DNA from: Fodinibius salipaludis | GTDB lineage: Bacteria > Bacteroidota > Rhodothermia > Balneolales > Balneolaceae | Assembly: GCF_002287075.1 (NCBI RefSeq) | Contig: NZ_NSKE01000006.1 | Location: 62,001 to 126,000 of the forward strand | Direction: 5' to 3' | DNA length: 64,000 nt | Part shown: positions 17,698 through 23,898 of the stretch, piece by piece | Layout: each line of letters begins with the position of its first letter | Numbering within the stretch: the stretch's first letter is position 1 | Program-made: the position numbers and the translations under genes | Notes under the pieces: generated by a model | Database searches by the model: none | Told to the model about the DNA's origin: nothing | The model's input: the letters and a program-made list of their open reading frames with translations, nothing else

Positions 17698-18252
17698 ATG
17701 GGTCAAAAGACAGAAAAAATATTACAACGCGCTAAAGAAAACTTAGATAAACAAAACCATGAACACGCTCTTCGCCTGTTTAATGAAGTTTTAAACAGAG
17801 AACCCGGTCATCCCCAGGCTCTACGAAATAAAGCCCTCATCAAAGTCATGAGTGGGAATAATGAAGAAGCGGAAAAGTTTCTTCTATTTGCAATAGATCA
17901 ACAGCCAGAGGACGACCAGCTTTATCAGCTGTTAGGAACACTGTATCACAATAGTGAAAAACCCCAGAAAGCACTTGCACAATTTAAAAAAGCTCTCGAT
18001 ATAAATGCTGATAACACAGTTGCCCAACAGGGAGCTGCCATGGTTTATGCCCACGTGTTGGGAGAACATGAGAAAGCTATTACTCACTTTACCAAAGCCC
18101 TTGAAAGCAGCCCGAAAAATGCAGAGCTCCTATTTAATCGGGGATGCAGTTACATAATATCCGAGCAAATGGGTAAAGCGGAGCAAGACTTACTAAAGGC
18201 GGCCGAATTTAATCATGAAAAAGCCAAAGAAATGGTAGAAAAATACTTCTGA
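17698..18252 (+). CDS. tetratricopeptide-repeat protein
   Basis: 184 residues with no signal peptide, made almost entirely of TPR units. The repeats begin at about residues 6, 40, 74, 108 and 142; the clearest are YHNSEKPQKALAQFKKALDI and LGEHEKAITHFTKALES. TPR arrays form scaffolds for protein-protein contact. No other domain is present, so the partner is unknown. It ends 5 bases before the stop of the converging fusion gene on the other strand, so their transcripts overlap tail to tail. Confidence 0.85.
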   Translation: MGQKTEKILQRAKENLDKQNHEHALRLFNEVLNREPGHPQALRNKALIKVMSGNNEEAEKFLLFAIDQQPEDDQLYQLLGTLYHNSEKPQKALAQFKKALDINADNTVAQQGAAMVYAHVLGEHEKAITHFTKALESSPKNAELLFNRGCSYIISEQMGKAEQDLLKAAEFNHEKAKEMVEKYF

Positions 18253-18257
18253 AGTTA

Positions 18258-20855
18258 TCACTCTTTTGTTTTTACTGTTTGATTAAACACCCGTTTAAGA
18301 AAGGAAAACAGTGACGATACTTCACTCCCATTACTTCTTACTTGATGTCCTATTTCAAAGGCGATTTTCCACTGTTCCATCAATATTTTCTGTCCGTCAA
18401 TAAAGGAATAGCCATCATCATAAATATTTATTGATTCAGAGGTTACGCCATTTACCTCAATAATTTTTAATTCTCTACCCTCTTTCAAGTTGTCGCAACT
18501 GGGAACTTTTATATCAAACCTTCCGAAGTAAAAGCCTTTTGCTGAATGGCAGATATTATTCATCCTTTTGGTTAAGGCTTTGGTAATAAGTTCTTTGCCT
18601 TCGAAGAAGATAGCACCCTGTGCATGTGTTCCTATTTCAACTAATGTTAATTGCTCTCCTTCGTCAGGTATCTCAAACAGACGATCCTCATTTCGCTTAA
18701 GATACTCTTTGCCCATATTCACGGTCTCATCGTCCGACAAAATTAACTCCTGTACTGTTTGCTGTCCGTCCCCAACGATTTGTGGCAACTTCTTTTTTGT
18801 GAGAGAGAAAATATCCCCTTGTTCATCTTGTGGCTTTTCATAATAGAAGATCCCTACTTCATTACCGTCTATAAACTCCTGTATGATGATATCCTCCGAA
18901 CATTCTGAAAGATAATCCTGTAAAATATATCGATCTTTTATAACGCTAACCCCCTTTCCTCTTTCCCCTACATCCGGCTTTAGTACGATGGGAAAGCTCA
19001 AATCATTTTCTTTCATAAACTGATCGGCACCATCAAGCATATTTTCAAACTCATCATCATAAGGAATCTTCTTATACAGGGCTACCGCTGATGAATTATC
19101 AAATAGATCCAGGATGGCACTTTTGGATTCTCCAATAAACCCGCCATCCGGAATAGCCGGATTTACGGCTGTAAATAATGTCAGGCAACGATATTTTATC
19201 CCTAAACAAATAATATAAAGCGTTACGGGCGTATAGATAACAATCGGCCACCAGTACTGCCAATGCGTTAATTTTCGATATCGGGATAGTAACAGTCGCC
19301 GACCTTTATAACTAAAGGCGGGAATAATTAACTTAACAAACATAATGATACCTATCACGGCCCCCAAAAATACCCATATCGCATAATCCTGGTAGAGTGT
19401 AAAATAGCGTAGCAACTCGTTTCCAAGAAGCTTAGAGATCCCTACAAGCATGGGGGTCCAAACAAGTCCAGCAAGAATAAAATAAAAGATAAACATCCAG
19501 AAACCGGCCCTTATTACCCCCGCGCTGAAATATGTTGGCATTCTGCTGCCCGGTAAAAACCGGGTTGCTATAATAATAGCCGGACCTTTAACTTTAAACC
19601 ACTGCGCACTTTTCTCGAGATCTTTTTCTGATATAATCCATTTGAAAGGCGCCCTCTTGATAGCGGGTCTTCCCAGTACTCTTCCCGCCAAATAAAGCCC
19701 TACATCACCAATAAGAATGCCGAGAAAACAAGCCAGTGTTGCCGGCCAAAATCCAATAAGACCCCGGGCTACTAACAATCCTGCTCCAATACATGTCAAG
19801 TCTTCACTAATCAGCGTACCCAGAATGATGATCAGCATAATAATCAGAAGCGAAACACCTTTAAACTTAGCGAAATCGACATTTGAAAACGACTTCTCGG
19901 CTTCTTTTATTCGTTCTTTGGAGGCATTATCTGCCGTTGTTGCCCTACCTTCTTCAACGTCAGTAATAAATGATATAATAGTCTGACTGACCGAATCGCT
20001 ATGGGTCTCCAGGAGATCGTGATCCGCATCATATAGCTGTAATTTGCTATGCGGTACAATGCGATAATGCTCCTGAGCGGCAGCCAGTGGTACCAAGGGA
20101 TCTTCCTTACCATGCAATATGATCATGGGCTTACCAAGCTCTTTTAGCTGGGATCTAAGCGGTCTCTGATCAGATTCGTAGTGCCTTTTCGCATAGGAAA
20201 CATCAATATCAATGGCATTAAAAAGACCAAAATGTGGAATCGTATTGTGTAGCAGCCATACTGCTCCCAACTGCATACCATGCACAGCATGATTTAAACG
20301 ATAGCTACCCAACAGTTCCAGCTCTTGCACTCCTACTGAGGCAATAAGTCCTATCGAAGCTATTTTTTCAGGATGGTCATGTGCCAAATGGATGGCACTG
20401 GGACCGCCCAATCCAAAACCAAACACATGAGCTCCGGAGATATCAAGCGAATCTAAAAACTGAAATGTATATATTGATGAGGTCTTGAATGAATAGCTGG
20501 GCAGATCATCATTCCCACTTCCGTAACCCGGCAAATGAGGTACTAAGATCCTCATTTCTGAGGACAAATCCGGTATTATCTCTTGAAATACCTCAGGACC
20601 TTCGGGACCACCGGGCAACAGTAATAAAATGGGAGGATTTTCTTCTGATCCGCTGTATATATCCTCATAACCAATGGTTATTTCTTTATCAGAAAGCGAC
20701 TGATCAGCTTTAACTACAGTTAATTGTACCGTCTTGTTGGGATCTTCCTGATCAGGTAGCGGATTCTGAAAAATACTTATAACAAGATGAGAAAGTGCCA
20801 GAGCAACAATATAAATAAGTACGTATCTTTTCCACCCTGTTATGTTCTTTATCAT
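18258..20855 (-). CDS. alpha/beta hydrolase - DedA/VTT - ATP-grasp triple-domain fusion
   Basis: 865 residues. Residues 10-28: membrane helix. About 45-305: alpha/beta hydrolase domain with oxyanion segment LLLLPGGPEGP, the acid in HGKEDPLVP and the His in DADHDLLETH, but the nucleophile elbow reads G146-F-G148-L-G150 instead of G-x-S-x-G, so the catalytic serine is missing. About 335-500: DedA/VTT domain (GILIGDVGLYLAGR, ATRFLPGSRMPTYFSAG), a family that includes lipid scramblases and flippases. Another helix at about 540-560 precedes an ATP-grasp ligase domain at about 590-835 (IVLKPDVGERGKGVSV, IIQEFIDGNE, IEVNGVTSES). The gene lies 17 bases behind the O-acyltransferase in an operon for acyl-amino-acid lipids. 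I infer a role in modifying and translocating that lipid; this is not established. Confidence 0.85.
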   Translation of the reverse strand: MIKNITGWKRYVLIYIVALALSHLVISIFQNPLPDQEDPNKTVQLTVVKADQSLSDKEITIGYEDIYSGSEENPPILLLLPGGPEGPEVFQEIIPDLSSEMRILVPHLPGYGSGNDDLPSYSFKTSSIYTFQFLDSLDISGAHVFGFGLGGPSAIHLAHDHPEKIASIGLIASVGVQELELLGSYRLNHAVHGMQLGAVWLLHNTIPHFGLFNAIDIDVSYAKRHYESDQRPLRSQLKELGKPMIILHGKEDPLVPLAAAQEHYRIVPHSKLQLYDADHDLLETHSDSVSQTIISFITDVEEGRATTADNASKERIKEAEKSFSNVDFAKFKGVSLLIIMLIIILGTLISEDLTCIGAGLLVARGLIGFWPATLACFLGILIGDVGLYLAGRVLGRPAIKRAPFKWIISEKDLEKSAQWFKVKGPAIIIATRFLPGSRMPTYFSAGVIRAGFWMFIFYFILAGLVWTPMLVGISKLLGNELLRYFTLYQDYAIWVFLGAVIGIIMFVKLIIPAFSYKGRRLLLSRYRKLTHWQYWWPIVIYTPVTLYIICLGIKYRCLTLFTAVNPAIPDGGFIGESKSAILDLFDNSSAVALYKKIPYDDEFENMLDGADQFMKENDLSFPIVLKPDVGERGKGVSVIKDRYILQDYLSECSEDIIIQEFIDGNEVGIFYYEKPQDEQGDIFSLTKKKLPQIVGDGQQTVQELILSDDETVNMGKEYLKRNEDRLFEIPDEGEQLTLVEIGTHAQGAIFFEGKELITKALTKRMNNICHSAKGFYFGRFDIKVPSCDNLKEGRELKIIEVNGVTSESINIYDDGYSFIDGQKILMEQWKIAFEIGHQVRSNGSEVSSLFSFLKRVFNQTVKTKE

Positions 20856-20872
20856 CTAATTAATCTCTGCCA

Positions 20873-21655
20873 TTAATTCTGTGAACCAACAATCGGAACA
20901 AACAATTGTGATACTTCTTTGTGTAACTGTTTTGAGAGTTCCTTTCTGTCATTATCTATAATCTCGCCACCAAATCTGACCCTAACATCAACCTGTTTTA
21001 TTTTCAGGAGCTCCCAAAAATGAGGAAAGAAATCCATGTCTCCCCACCAGCAAACGTGTGACCATGCCGGCCGTTTGGCATCCAACGAACGGTATGTAAT
21101 AGCCACACTACTCACCGGCATTTCTTTTTCCGCCGGATAGTTTAACAAAGAGGAATTAAAAGGTAAAATTCTTTCCCCTTTCGAACTTGTCCCCTCGGGA
21201 AATAAAATAATACCCTGTGAATCAGAGATTGACTCCGCAATGCGATTATTCATCCGATGAACATCACCCTGTAGCTTTCTATCAATAAAAAGAACGCCAA
21301 GGGTTTGGGTTCCCCATCCAAAAAACGGCCATGACGCTACTTCACTTTTCGCAATAAATGTCCCATCCAAAAAATACCAAAGCGGCACAACATCGATATA
21401 GCTTACATGATTGGATACCAGAAAAAAAGGAGGTTTCGGCGGTGATCCTTCAGAAGAAATTTTAAGCCCCAGTATGTTAGCTGTTAATGAGGCCCAAATA
21501 GTTATTATGTTATTTTTCCATTTGACAACCATTAATGGTTTTATAAAACGAAAAACCACATTGCCCGCAGCAACCAAAATTACCGTACAAAAAGAAACTA
21601 AAAAGAAAAATACGAGACGTATAAATGCCCTTACATGATCAATTATATTTTTCAT
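20873..21655 (-). CDS. lysophospholipid acyltransferase, OlsA/GlsA-like (PlsC family)
   Basis: 260 residues. An N-terminal membrane helix pair (about 10-35) precedes the acyltransferase core with HX4D in SNHVSYIDVVPLW (catalytic His and Asp) and FPEGTSS further on, the acceptor phosphate/lyso-lipid motif. PlsC-type enzymes transfer a fatty acyl chain from acyl-ACP to a hydroxyl group. It directly follows an OlsB-like N-acyltransferase with a two-base gap, the standard pair for ornithine lipids (OlsB then OlsA) or glycine lipids (GlsB then GlsA of Bacteroides), so its likely acceptor is the 3-hydroxyacyl-amino acid made by that enzyme. Confidence 0.85.
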   Translation of the reverse strand: MKNIIDHVRAFIRLVFFFLVSFCTVILVAAGNVVFRFIKPLMVVKWKNNIITIWASLTANILGLKISSEGSPPKPPFFLVSNHVSYIDVVPLWYFLDGTFIAKSEVASWPFFGWGTQTLGVLFIDRKLQGDVHRMNNRIAESISDSQGIILFPEGTSSKGERILPFNSSLLNYPAEKEMPVSSVAITYRSLDAKRPAWSHVCWWGDMDFFPHFWELLKIKQVDVRVRFGGEIIDNDRKELSKQLHKEVSQLFVPIVGSQN

Positions 21656-21657
21656 AT

Positions 21658-22419
21658 CTATCTGAAAAACAGTTTCCTTGAGCGCTCATCAAGGTTTTCA
21701 AGATCTACCAAGATTAAAAAATCAATCGTTTTAAAGGCCTTATCTAATGCTGGTTTAGATAAAGTTTTGGCTCCTAAATCGAGATAAAGATTAAATAGTT
21801 CAGGTAATGTTACATTTTTCCACGCTTCTGTATCCCTCTCAACAGCAGGACAGCAATAATCATCTCTCGCATCTATACTTAAGGAGCTGTGAAGGTGATC
21901 ATTCTCACGCAAATAATCCCATACCTCCCAACCTTCGGCGGGATCAGTACTTTTGATAGAACAGCATCCTAACAGGTAGCGCTGTCCGGTTATTTCCATA
22001 TACTTTGCTATCCCCCGCCACAACAAGTAAAGCACACGTCCGTTGCGGTGTTCTTTTTGGATACAAGCTCGGCCTACCTCCACCGCCTCATTTAGAATTT
22101 CCTTAGGTAGTGTAGACAAATCAAATTCATCAGATGTATATAGTCCATGCCTCTGAATTGCTTTTTGGTACGTCTGCAATCGATAGGTACCTATCACACA
22201 GTCTGTCTTACGATCTACAACGATAAGGTGGTTACACTGCAAATCGTACCGATCAACATCGAGATGGTGCTGATGGGATTCTTCCAATCCTTCACCAAGC
22301 TCCACATTAAATACGCGATATCGCAACGATTGGGCAGCCCGCAAGTCGGCTTCTGTCTTGGCAAAACCCAACTTATACTGATTAGTGGTAAGTAGTTGTC
22401 CGGTTAGTGCTCGTTCCAC
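21658..22419 (-). CDS. OlsB/GlsB-like acyl-ACP N-acyltransferase (GNAT superfamily)
   Basis: 253 residues. The Acetyltransf_5/OlsB family pattern is complete: LRAAQSLRYRVFNVELGE near the start, GTYRLQT at about 77, EVGRACIQKEHRNGRVLYLLWRGI at about 112-135 and YLLGCCSIKS after that. Family members attach a 3-hydroxyacyl chain from acyl-ACP to the amino group of ornithine (OlsB) or glycine/serine (GlsB in Bacteroidota). Given the likely phylum, glycine or a related amino acid is as probable as ornithine; the sequence alone does not tell. It is the first gene of a three-gene operon on the - strand. Confidence 0.85.
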   Translation of the reverse strand: MERALTGQLLTTNQYKLGFAKTEADLRAAQSLRYRVFNVELGEGLEESHQHHLDVDRYDLQCNHLIVVDRKTDCVIGTYRLQTYQKAIQRHGLYTSDEFDLSTLPKEILNEAVEVGRACIQKEHRNGRVLYLLWRGIAKYMEITGQRYLLGCCSIKSTDPAEGWEVWDYLRENDHLHSSLSIDARDDYCCPAVERDTEAWKNVTLPELFNLYLDLGAKTLSKPALDKAFKTIDFLILVDLENLDERSRKLFFR

Positions 22420-22538: not shown

Positions 22539-22871
22539 TCAGTTTTTTTTAGCCATCCAGTCTTTTAGAGCAGACGTTACCAAAGCTGAGTAATACATAT
22601 CGTTGTTATCAGCCATTGATTTAACTTTATCAATTAAATCAATTTCCAAATAGTAGCTTACAATTTTCTTTTTGGTCTTTTCTTCGTTTTTGGATGTCGT
22701 ATTCTTGCCCCTGTCTTTCTCCTTTTCATCCCGATCTTGCTTTGTAGTTACAACAGCTGTATCTGTATCCTTTTTATTATCTGAAACCCCTCGATCAGGA
22801 ATAAATCCCATAGTACTTTTTTTTGATTTAAAGGCAATAGGACTACTTCCTAAACTCTTCTTCTTTGACAT
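22539..22871 (-). CDS. small ParA partner with RHH-like C-terminus
   Basis: 110 residues. The first 65 are basic, polar and low-complexity (KKKSLGSSPIAFKSKKS, then a Lys/Asp/Glu/Thr run); the last 45 (KKKIVSYYLEIDLIDKVKSM, then YYSALVTSALKDW) look like a short strand followed by two helices, the ribbon-helix-helix pattern. The gene starts 24 bases after the ParA gene. A disordered basic arm plus a small dimeric DNA-binding domain is what centromere-binding or cargo-adaptor partners of ParA ATPases usually look like (ParG, McdB-type analogues). Assignment is by context and shape, not by recognised family. Confidence 0.6.
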   Translation of the reverse strand: MSKKKSLGSSPIAFKSKKSTMGFIPDRGVSDNKKDTDTAVVTTKQDRDEKEKDRGKNTTSKNEEKTKKKIVSYYLEIDLIDKVKSMADNNDMYYSALVTSALKDWMAKKN

Positions 22872-22895
22872 AATAAGCTAATCCCTATTAATATT

Positions 22896-23660
22896 CTACG
22901 CGTGCTGCAACTGACCATTTCTTATTTCCTGAGCCAGCGCCTTGTAATCTTTTGCTCCATGGCTGTCAGGCGCATACTCAAAGATTGTTTTGTGATGACT
23001 CGGTGCCTCTGCCAACGCAACATTATCTCTAATGATCGTATCAAAAACTTTATCACCAAAGTAATCCTGAATATGATCCACCACTTCCTTATTCAGATTT
23101 TTCCGCCCGTCAAATAACGTGCAGATAATACCACTGATTTCTATATCAGGATTTAATCGTTCTTTAACAATCTGGATAACATCCATCAGCTTTGACAGAC
23201 CGTGCAGCGCCAAATATTCGGATTGCAGTACAATAAATATTTCCTTAACAGCTGTAAAGGCATTAAGCGTTAACAACCCCAAGTTGGGTGGACAATCAAT
23301 TAAGATATAATCGTAATCCTTTGATAAGCTGCTCAACGAATTTTTAAGCAACATCTCCCGAGCGGGCTCATTGGCAAACTCCATTTCAGCTCCTGAGAGG
23401 TCAATCGAAGAAGGCATTATATCAAATCCATTATGACTTATAACTGCCTCATCAGCCTGAATATCTCCTTTTAGCACCTCGTAGATGCTATTTTCTAAAC
23501 GATTGGAACTAAGCCGCAACGAATAGGTAAGGTTAGCCTGTGGATCCAAATCTACCAATAAAACCTTGAATCCCTCCTGGGCAAGTCCAGCCCCCACATT
23601 AATCGTTGAGGTCGTTTTTCCCACTCCTCCTTTCTGATTGGTAAAAGCTATTGTTTTCAT
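22896..23660 (-). CDS. ParA/MinD-family ATPase
   Basis: 254 residues from the ATG at 23660, which gives the standard start MKTIAFTNQKGGVGKTT; an upstream ATG at 23693 would add 11 residues without family match. The deviant Walker A KGGVGKTTS (both lysines), the LLVDLDPQANLT Walker A' region, IIDCPPNLGLLTLNA (Walker B) and a late FEYAPDSHGAKDY are all intact. ParA ATPases form ATP-dependent dimers on DNA and move plasmids, chromosomes or protein cargo. It has no classic ParB next to it, only the small RHH-like protein, so plasmid-type or cargo-positioning duty is more likely than chromosome partitioning. Confidence 0.92.
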   Translation of the reverse strand: MKTIAFTNQKGGVGKTTSTINVGAGLAQEGFKVLLVDLDPQANLTYSLRLSSNRLENSIYEVLKGDIQADEAVISHNGFDIMPSSIDLSGAEMEFANEPAREMLLKNSLSSLSKDYDYILIDCPPNLGLLTLNAFTAVKEIFIVLQSEYLALHGLSKLMDVIQIVKERLNPDIEISGIICTLFDGRKNLNKEVVDHIQDYFGDKVFDTIIRDNVALAEAPSHHKTIFEYAPDSHGAKDYKALAQEIRNGQLQHA

Positions 23661-23898
23661 ACGTACATACCGTTTGTTGATTCCCGAAATCAATTAATAA
23701 TTATTAATCAGGGTAAAACCCCTTTATTTAATAGAGAACTTCATGGAGGGTTTGTTACAGAAATATTAAATATTTTTAATATTATTTCTTGTATGCACTT
23801 TTAGTGCTTAGAGAGGATATTTAAAAGAAAAAAAACGGATAGGAATTTCTTTAATACTATTTTAAATCAGTATCAAAGAACAATCTGTTCGAGTGGAA

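Follow-up and report, generated by a model that had tools for sequence, protein, structure and literature searches.

Organization of the locus

The window analysed here is a stretch of 64,000 nucleotides (contig positions C36:62001-126000) from the 3.58-Mb genome of Fodinibius salipaludis, a member of the Balneolaceae. It contains a three-gene locus encoding an OlsB-like N-acyltransferase, an OlsA-like O-acyltransferase and an 865-residue fusion protein that carries an ATP-grasp ligase domain. All three genes lie on the minus strand with intergenic gaps of 2 bp (OlsB-OlsA) and 17 bp (OlsA-fusion), and they are confirmed as one tight operon. A preliminary description of this DNA had proposed the same three open reading frames; each was recovered in its place and orientation, and its domains were confirmed by Pfam. 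The genes and the regions of the fusion protein are as follows.

21658..22419, minus strand: OlsB-like N-acyltransferase, 253 residues, GTG start (PF13444 3e-30; NF052554 141.7 bits)
20873..21655, minus strand: OlsA-like O-acyltransferase, 260 residues (PF01553 8e-21; NF052553 149.3 bits; motifs)
18258..20855, minus strand: fusion protein, 865 residues, comprising a transmembrane anchor, a probable hydrolase pseudoenzyme, a VTT/DedA domain, a segment probably resting in the membrane and an ATP-grasp domain (Pfam, alignment, model)
20772..20834, minus strand: N-terminal membrane anchor, fusion residues 8-28 (hydropathy, helix in model)
19953..20735, minus strand: alpha/beta-hydrolase domain, fusion residues 41-301 (Pfam, Foldseek, triad survey)
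19266..19856, minus strand: VTT/DedA domain, fusion residues 334-530, with conserved E351, D352, D384, R432 and R438 (Pfam, UptA model match, residue survey)
19167..19253, minus strand: hydrophobic segment, fusion residues 535-563, with basic residues on both sides (hydropathy, charges, conserved motif)
18321..19265, minus strand: ATP-grasp domain, fusion residues 531-845, with invariant K626, R779, D781, E800 and N802 (Pfam, alignment, model, fold)

The OlsB-like protein matches Acetyltransf_5 (PF13444; Pfam) at 3e-30, with 105.2 bits against a gathering score of 22.4, and adjoins an OlsA-type acyltransferase, which places it among the OlsB-like lipid N-acyltransferases. The gene is predicted to encode a 3-hydroxyacyl-ACP (acyl carrier protein):amino acid N-acyltransferase. 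Its scores of 141.7 bits (NF052554, cut-off 350) and 134 bits (cut-off 320) lie below the cut-offs of the OlsB equivalog models, which are matched by all 29 OlsB-like homologues checked from several phyla, and its score against the GlsB model (NF053696) is 23 bits for a cut-off of 300. The earlier label "OlsB/GlsB-like" is thus appropriate in its first half and not in its second. The OlsA-like protein contains an acyltransferase domain (PF01553, 8e-21; Pfam) in which both the HX4D (HVSYID, residue 83) and the FPEGT motif are intact, and scores 149.3 bits against NF052553 (cut-off 300). Both acyltransferase families, their order and their adjacency are shared with the OlsB/OlsA pathway of ornithine-lipid synthesis (and, as families, with the bifunctional OlsF), whereas the window genes score far under the respective equivalog cut-offs (141.7/350 and 149.3/300). 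We know of no ATP-grasp or VTT partner in the known OlsB/OlsA operons.

Domains of the fusion protein

Pfam identifies Abhydrolase_1 at residues 75-173 (1e-16), VTT_dom at residues 359-473 (3e-16) and a RimK-like ATP-grasp domain from residue 608 (2e-5). The fusion is a single open frame conserved over its full length in many genomes, at about 40-84% identity, with the 84% copy encoded by a genome of the same genus, and it is therefore not a frameshift or assembly artefact. Separate hydrolase-VTT and ATP-grasp genes in two genomes (G074 and G124) were rejected as genuine splits, both being contig ends. The full-length model has a mean predicted local distance difference test score (pLDDT) of 85 and a predicted template modelling score (pTM) of 0.52, so that the relative placement of the domains is not trustworthy. 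A Foldseek search with the whole fusion returned only hydrolases among the matches listed, which says nothing on the other domains.

Modelled alone, the ATP-grasp domain has a mean pLDDT of 90. Its fold is most like that of the ATP-grasp region in cyanophycin synthetase (CphA1; Z 17.1, 265 residues aligned, root mean squared deviation 4.3), and the nearest solved relatives by profile are CphA2-like proteins, cyanophycin synthetase, GshAB, Ddl and an L-amino-acid ligase. All 34 full-length fusion homologues, which come from several phyla, share K626, R779, D781, E800 and N802, with E800 and N802 aligning with the ExN pair of CphA2-like proteins. The fold, the conserved Lys (K626) and the metal-binding residues (D781, E800 and N802) are those of an ATP-grasp carboxylate-amine ligase. 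The domain is predicted to catalyse ATP-dependent amide or peptide bond formation, with the substrate given by neither sequence nor fold; the profile and fold matches to CphA, GshAB and Ddl agree with the amide-forming role suggested earlier. While the fold, the Lys and the D/E/N metal site are common to cyanophycin synthetase, GshAB and Ddl, identity to these enzymes is 10-19% over the fold, and the window ligase differs from them in having no cyanophycin or glutathione partner domains and in belonging to a family with a conserved, probably membrane-resting motif. This motif (WEFWP...FYPPV), within the segment at residues 535-563, is also found in ligases encoded as stand-alone proteins in several phyla, and the segment probably lies in the membrane, entered from the cytoplasmic face. 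Neither Pfam nor NCBIfam holds a model specific to this ATP-grasp family. Elsewhere in the same genome an 889-residue protein (L006; G000:C12:6050-6685) has a weakly similar ATP-grasp stretch and is probably cyanophycin-synthetase-like. Two distant stand-alone ATP-grasp relatives (L074:5953-7026 and L075:5610-6683; 25% identity, long tree branch) are without the cluster partners described below.

The VTT domain was surveyed together with the hydrolase in 81 aligned sequences, some loci being counted twice, and D352, R432 and R438 are conserved in nearly all of them. In Escherichia coli YqjA, the essential residues E39, D51, R130 and R136 lie on two re-entrant loops, and the six-residue spacing of R130/R136 is the same as that of R432/R438 (PMC7818093). 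As in UptA and YqjA, a VTT Pfam match is accompanied by conserved residues at what appear to be the same D/R/R positions; the window domain differs in being fused between a hydrolase and a ligase, and its score against the UptA equivalog is 60 for a cut-off of 250. In a by-eye comparison with the YqjA sequence, D352 appears to be the counterpart of YqjA D51, and no E39 counterpart was seen. In keeping with the earlier assignment to the VTT family, the domain retains positions that appear to match residues essential in a DedA protein.

In the hydrolase domain the nucleophile Ser is replaced by Gly148 (GFGLGG), with Asp252 and His279 kept, and the Ser-Asp/Glu-His triad is therefore incomplete. 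Lacking the nucleophile, the domain should not hydrolyse by the usual mechanism, and the description "hydrolase-like" is correct for the fold but not for an enzyme. In the survey, the Ser is present in all 48 sequences recovered with a ligase outside the window's family; inside the family it is found only in G074 (L055), the others having Gly, Ala, Lys or Asn, and the Asp and His are also lost in most Balneola-like members. The domain is probably catalytically active in most phyla, and in the window lineage it is probably a pseudoenzyme. An alpha/beta-hydrolase-fold protein, OlsI, is the O-acyltransferase of planctomycete ornithine-lipid synthesis (PMC12493201). The OlsH/OlsI pathway resembles the present locus in pairing such an O-acyltransferase with an adjacent amide synthetase that uses ATP (PMC12493201), but OlsH is of the GH3 type rather than an ATP-grasp enzyme, and the window hydrolase is without a nucleophile.

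Conservation of the OlsB-ligase linkage

Among 245 genomes of the class, the ATP-grasp ligase was found in 47, a type-1 OlsB in 53 and both in 43. The two genes are 0.8-1.65 kb apart in 41 of these 43 genomes, with the other two broken by contig ends. Of 163 good genomes in the class, 37 have both genes, none the ligase only, six type-1 OlsB only and 120 neither, such that type-1 OlsB is present in 37/37 genomes with the ligase and in 6/126 without it (Fisher p 1e-30, relatedness ignored). The link between OlsB and the ligase is not chance. The preliminary description had held that its proposal would fail if the fusion commonly occurred without the acyltransferases; in the class it does not, OlsB adjoining the fusion in those 41 of 43 genomes. 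The good genomes with OlsB only have OlsBA alone (G184 and G205, with only OlsA recovered as an open reading frame in the latter), OlsBA-VTT (G021 and G029) or OlsBA-hydrolase-VTT (G069). G231 was rejected as a true OlsB-only genome: its contig ends inside a DinB gene, and the missing ligase is therefore uninformative.

Within the window's family, by counts made by hand from the class surveys, type-1 OlsB is found in 26/26 genomes with the ligase as compared with 3/45 that have a VTT locus but no ligase. Since the ligase-less genomes are mostly without type-1 OlsB, it follows that OlsB and the ligase tend to be jointly absent, while OlsA and VTT stay. A second, more divergent OlsB-OlsA pair lies elsewhere, beside a transporter-like gene, in several ligase-less family members (L164:6133-7690, L165:6055-7628 and L168:5536-7092).

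A scan of 84,980 species genomes produced 511 relatives of the ATP-grasp domain, the closest named ones being on Aliifodinibius/Fodinibius contigs; the best 80 were taken further and 79 loci were read. These best 80 of the 511 come from Balneolota/Rhodothermota, Acidobacteriota, Verrucomicrobiota, Planctomycetota, Gemmatimonadota, Calditrichota, KSB1, Desulfobacterota and Spirochaetota. In Acidobacteriota, Verrucomicrobiota, Planctomycetota, Gemmatimonadota, Calditrichota and Desulfobacterota the same cluster is seen again, usually joined by DinB-like and TANGO2-like genes. The ligase is fused to VTT in at least 70 of the 79 loci, and to the hydrolase too in at least 50; OlsB lies within 6 kb in at least 47, with DinB-like (at least 52), TANGO2-like (at least 37) and DoxX-like (at least 18) genes as further neighbours, all lower bounds because many contigs are short. 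In Desulfobacterota an OlsF-like bifunctional synthase adjoins the fusion (L081 and L089). Outside the class, an OlsB or OlsF-like protein is encoded elsewhere in 21/23 genomes that have no local OlsB, in line with the association first proposed. As about half of sequenced bacterial species have OlsB or OlsF (PMC12493201), this count is weak alone and gives modest support.

In the window genome and three close relatives there is no DinB-like gene, and no TANGO2- or DoxX-like gene lies beside the window locus. DinB was thus rejected as an essential partner in this lineage, and the minimal set here is consequently OlsB, OlsA, VTT and the ligase. In the DinB-like partner (L082:5988-6521, alignment A6), H45, H48, H135, H138 and H139 are conserved, which suggests a metal site. 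Cys2 is invariant in the TANGO2-like partner (L088:6334-7083, alignment A7), suggesting an N-terminal-nucleophile enzyme.

The preliminary description further connected the locus to the Gly-Ser lipids, with the point that addition of their second amino acid had no assigned enzyme. That point holds: in late 2025 the Ser-adding enzyme was still unidentified and marked "??" (PMC12746155). The fusion ligase was considered as this missing enzyme and rejected. GlsB is above cut-off in 14 genomes of the phylum, taken as GlsB-model positives by sequence rather than as chemically identified producers, and only one of them (G508) also has this ATP-grasp family, so that the ligase is not a general answer for Gly-Ser lipids. 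The GlsB/GlsA system (lipid 430/654, flavolipin) does share the acyl-amino-acid lipid logic, in which another enzyme adds the second amino acid (PMC12746155), but the window OlsB is distant from the GlsB model (23 bits) and the ligase family is missing in 13/14 GlsB genomes. Taken together, the three-gene association and the amide-type ATP-grasp domain of the preliminary description were borne out, and its Gly-Ser link was not.

With regard to the surroundings of the operon, a convergent tetratricopeptide repeat (TPR) gene (17698-18252) ends 5 bp from the fusion stop on the downstream side. Directly upstream of OlsB are a ParA-like ATPase and a small CopG-like protein (22539-23693, minus strand); neighbours of the same size occur in L076 and L077 and are lacking in L078 and L079. 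Promoter and terminator scans gave matches no commoner than in shuffled sequence.

Proposed function and alternatives

We estimate a probability of about one half that the operon both synthesizes and translocates an amino-acid lipid whose head group is enlarged, with the ligase adding a second building block and the VTT domain flipping the product. Beyond the genes and domains, the intact ligase residues, the lost hydrolase Ser and the conserved linkage, which are observed, we infer a substrate, a direction of ligation, a product and a transport step. Going by their families, OlsB would attach a 3-hydroxy fatty acid to the amino group of an amino acid, after which OlsA would esterify the hydroxyl to give a 3-acyloxyacyl amino acid lipid. 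The membrane-resting segment may hold the ATP-grasp domain at the cytoplasmic face, where it would form an acyl-phosphate and then an amide or peptide bond, most likely linking the free carboxylate of the lipid to an amine supplied by a second amino acid or a comparable molecule, so that the lipid becomes dipeptide-like. Transfer of this product to the inner membrane's outer leaflet would fall to the VTT/DedA domain on the same polypeptide. The hydrolase domain may be a relic or a binding module in the window lineage, and may edit or acylate the lipid in other phyla, where the Ser is kept. Unidentified aminolipids have been reported from Fodinibius (PMC12260241), and amino lipids that bear a dipeptide, a tripeptide or taurine provide a chemical precedent (PMC8433624, and the reference it gives for cerilipin). 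A literature search on ATP-grasp with DedA, lipid and amino acid gave nothing pertinent, only unrelated genome work. More tentatively, and at slightly less than even odds, a multi-phylum family of membrane-resting ATP-grasp enzymes may build peptide-like head groups on amino-acid lipids, with one large clade fused to its own DedA-type flippase, placing synthesis and translocation in one polypeptide, and with the DinB-like and TANGO2-like proteins as further parts of the pathway.

Several observations weigh against the proposal of an enlarged head group. The class co-occurrence counts take no account of relatedness, and a tree-based independent-pairs test of the VTT fusion against OlsB had too few pairs to decide. 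Loci with OlsB-OlsA-VTT or OlsB-OlsA-hydrolase-VTT and no ligase exist (L066; L159, L160), so that the ligase is dispensable. Moreover, 40 of 296 genomes from other classes of the phylum encode the ligase as a stand-alone protein, mostly of 340-400 residues; OlsB adjoins none of the 30 such loci read, and 16 of the 40 genomes are without OlsB, OlsF and GlsB, as judged with the same OlsB profile that finds matches elsewhere. Consequently, an OlsB lipid cannot be assumed as the family-wide substrate, and the substrate range of the ligase family may be broader than OlsB lipids.

In the tree, the stand-alone ligases group in a single clade (SH-aLRT 90), next to that of the VTT-fused ligases (97). 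Their neighbours in the 30 loci include DinB (20), TANGO2 (17) and DoxX (11); a YHS-domain gene and a LysE-type translocator are also frequent. OlsF or GlsB is found in 24/40 genomes with a stand-alone ligase versus 77/256 without. All 16 genomes lacking OlsB-type enzymes have GH3-family proteins, one such protein being the N-acyl-ornithine synthetase of planctomycetes (PMC12493201), so that acyl-amino acids may be made there. A conserved cluster (L203:5769-9518; also L204, L206, L215 and L228) comprises YHS-domain, DoxX, DinB-like, TANGO2/NRDE, stand-alone ATP-grasp and LysE-type translocator genes, and no paper was found that joins three or more of DoxX, DinB, ATP-grasp, TANGO2 and NRDE. In two loci (L205:5884-7674 and L214:5917-7686) a TANGO2 domain is fused directly to ATP-grasp in one protein, which argues that both act on the same compound.

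These stand-alone loci, with their LysE-type translocator and no OlsB, and the 16/40 genomes without OlsB-type enzymes speak for another explanation, in which the ligase yields some other product, either a small peptide or a lipid of non-OlsB type that has been modified, within a core DoxX-DinB-TANGO2-ATP-grasp pathway, OlsB and OlsA having joined secondarily and VTT (LysE elsewhere) exporting that product. Across phyla, in addition, DinB is found beside the ligase no less regularly than OlsB. The window genome nevertheless keeps OlsB, OlsA and the fusion without DinB, and without TANGO2 or DoxX by the locus, the class gives 37/37 co-occurrence with OlsB, and the GH3-family proteins of those 16 genomes might offer another source of acyl-amino acids; we regard this explanation as rather unlikely. 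It is unlikely, to a greater degree, that the ligase joins an amino acid through its carboxylate to an amine of the lipid (e.g. the ornithine delta-amine), thereby changing its charge instead of extending the lipid carboxylate. The OlsB-like protein is closest to ornithine-lipid OlsB models, which would leave a side-chain amine free, and ATP-grasp ligases of the RimK/LysX kind are generally known to couple carboxylates to amines of larger acceptors; however, the sequence does not fix the direction of ligation, and Gly-Ser, Gly-Ser-Orn and ornithine-taurine lipids are known to be extended at the carboxylate (PMC8433624 in part). The relatives with OlsB-OlsA-VTT and no ligase (L066 and L159) could also indicate a plain ornithine-lipid operon in which OlsB and OlsA make ornithine lipid, VTT is a scramblase and the ATP-grasp domain has a regulatory or sensing role with no lipid substrate. 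The invariance of the catalytic and metal-binding residues in the 34 full-length homologues argues for enzymatic activity instead and makes this very improbable.

For the step in which bacterial amino lipids acquire a second amino acid, the locus names a concrete candidate ligase that would act on an OlsB-type lipid, one that is spread over many phyla and has no family model of its own. The locus also ties this ligase to a DedA-type transporter, and could in this way lead to the natural lipid of that transporter. In addition, it sets TANGO2-like and DinB-like proteins of bacteria in a genomic context common to both.

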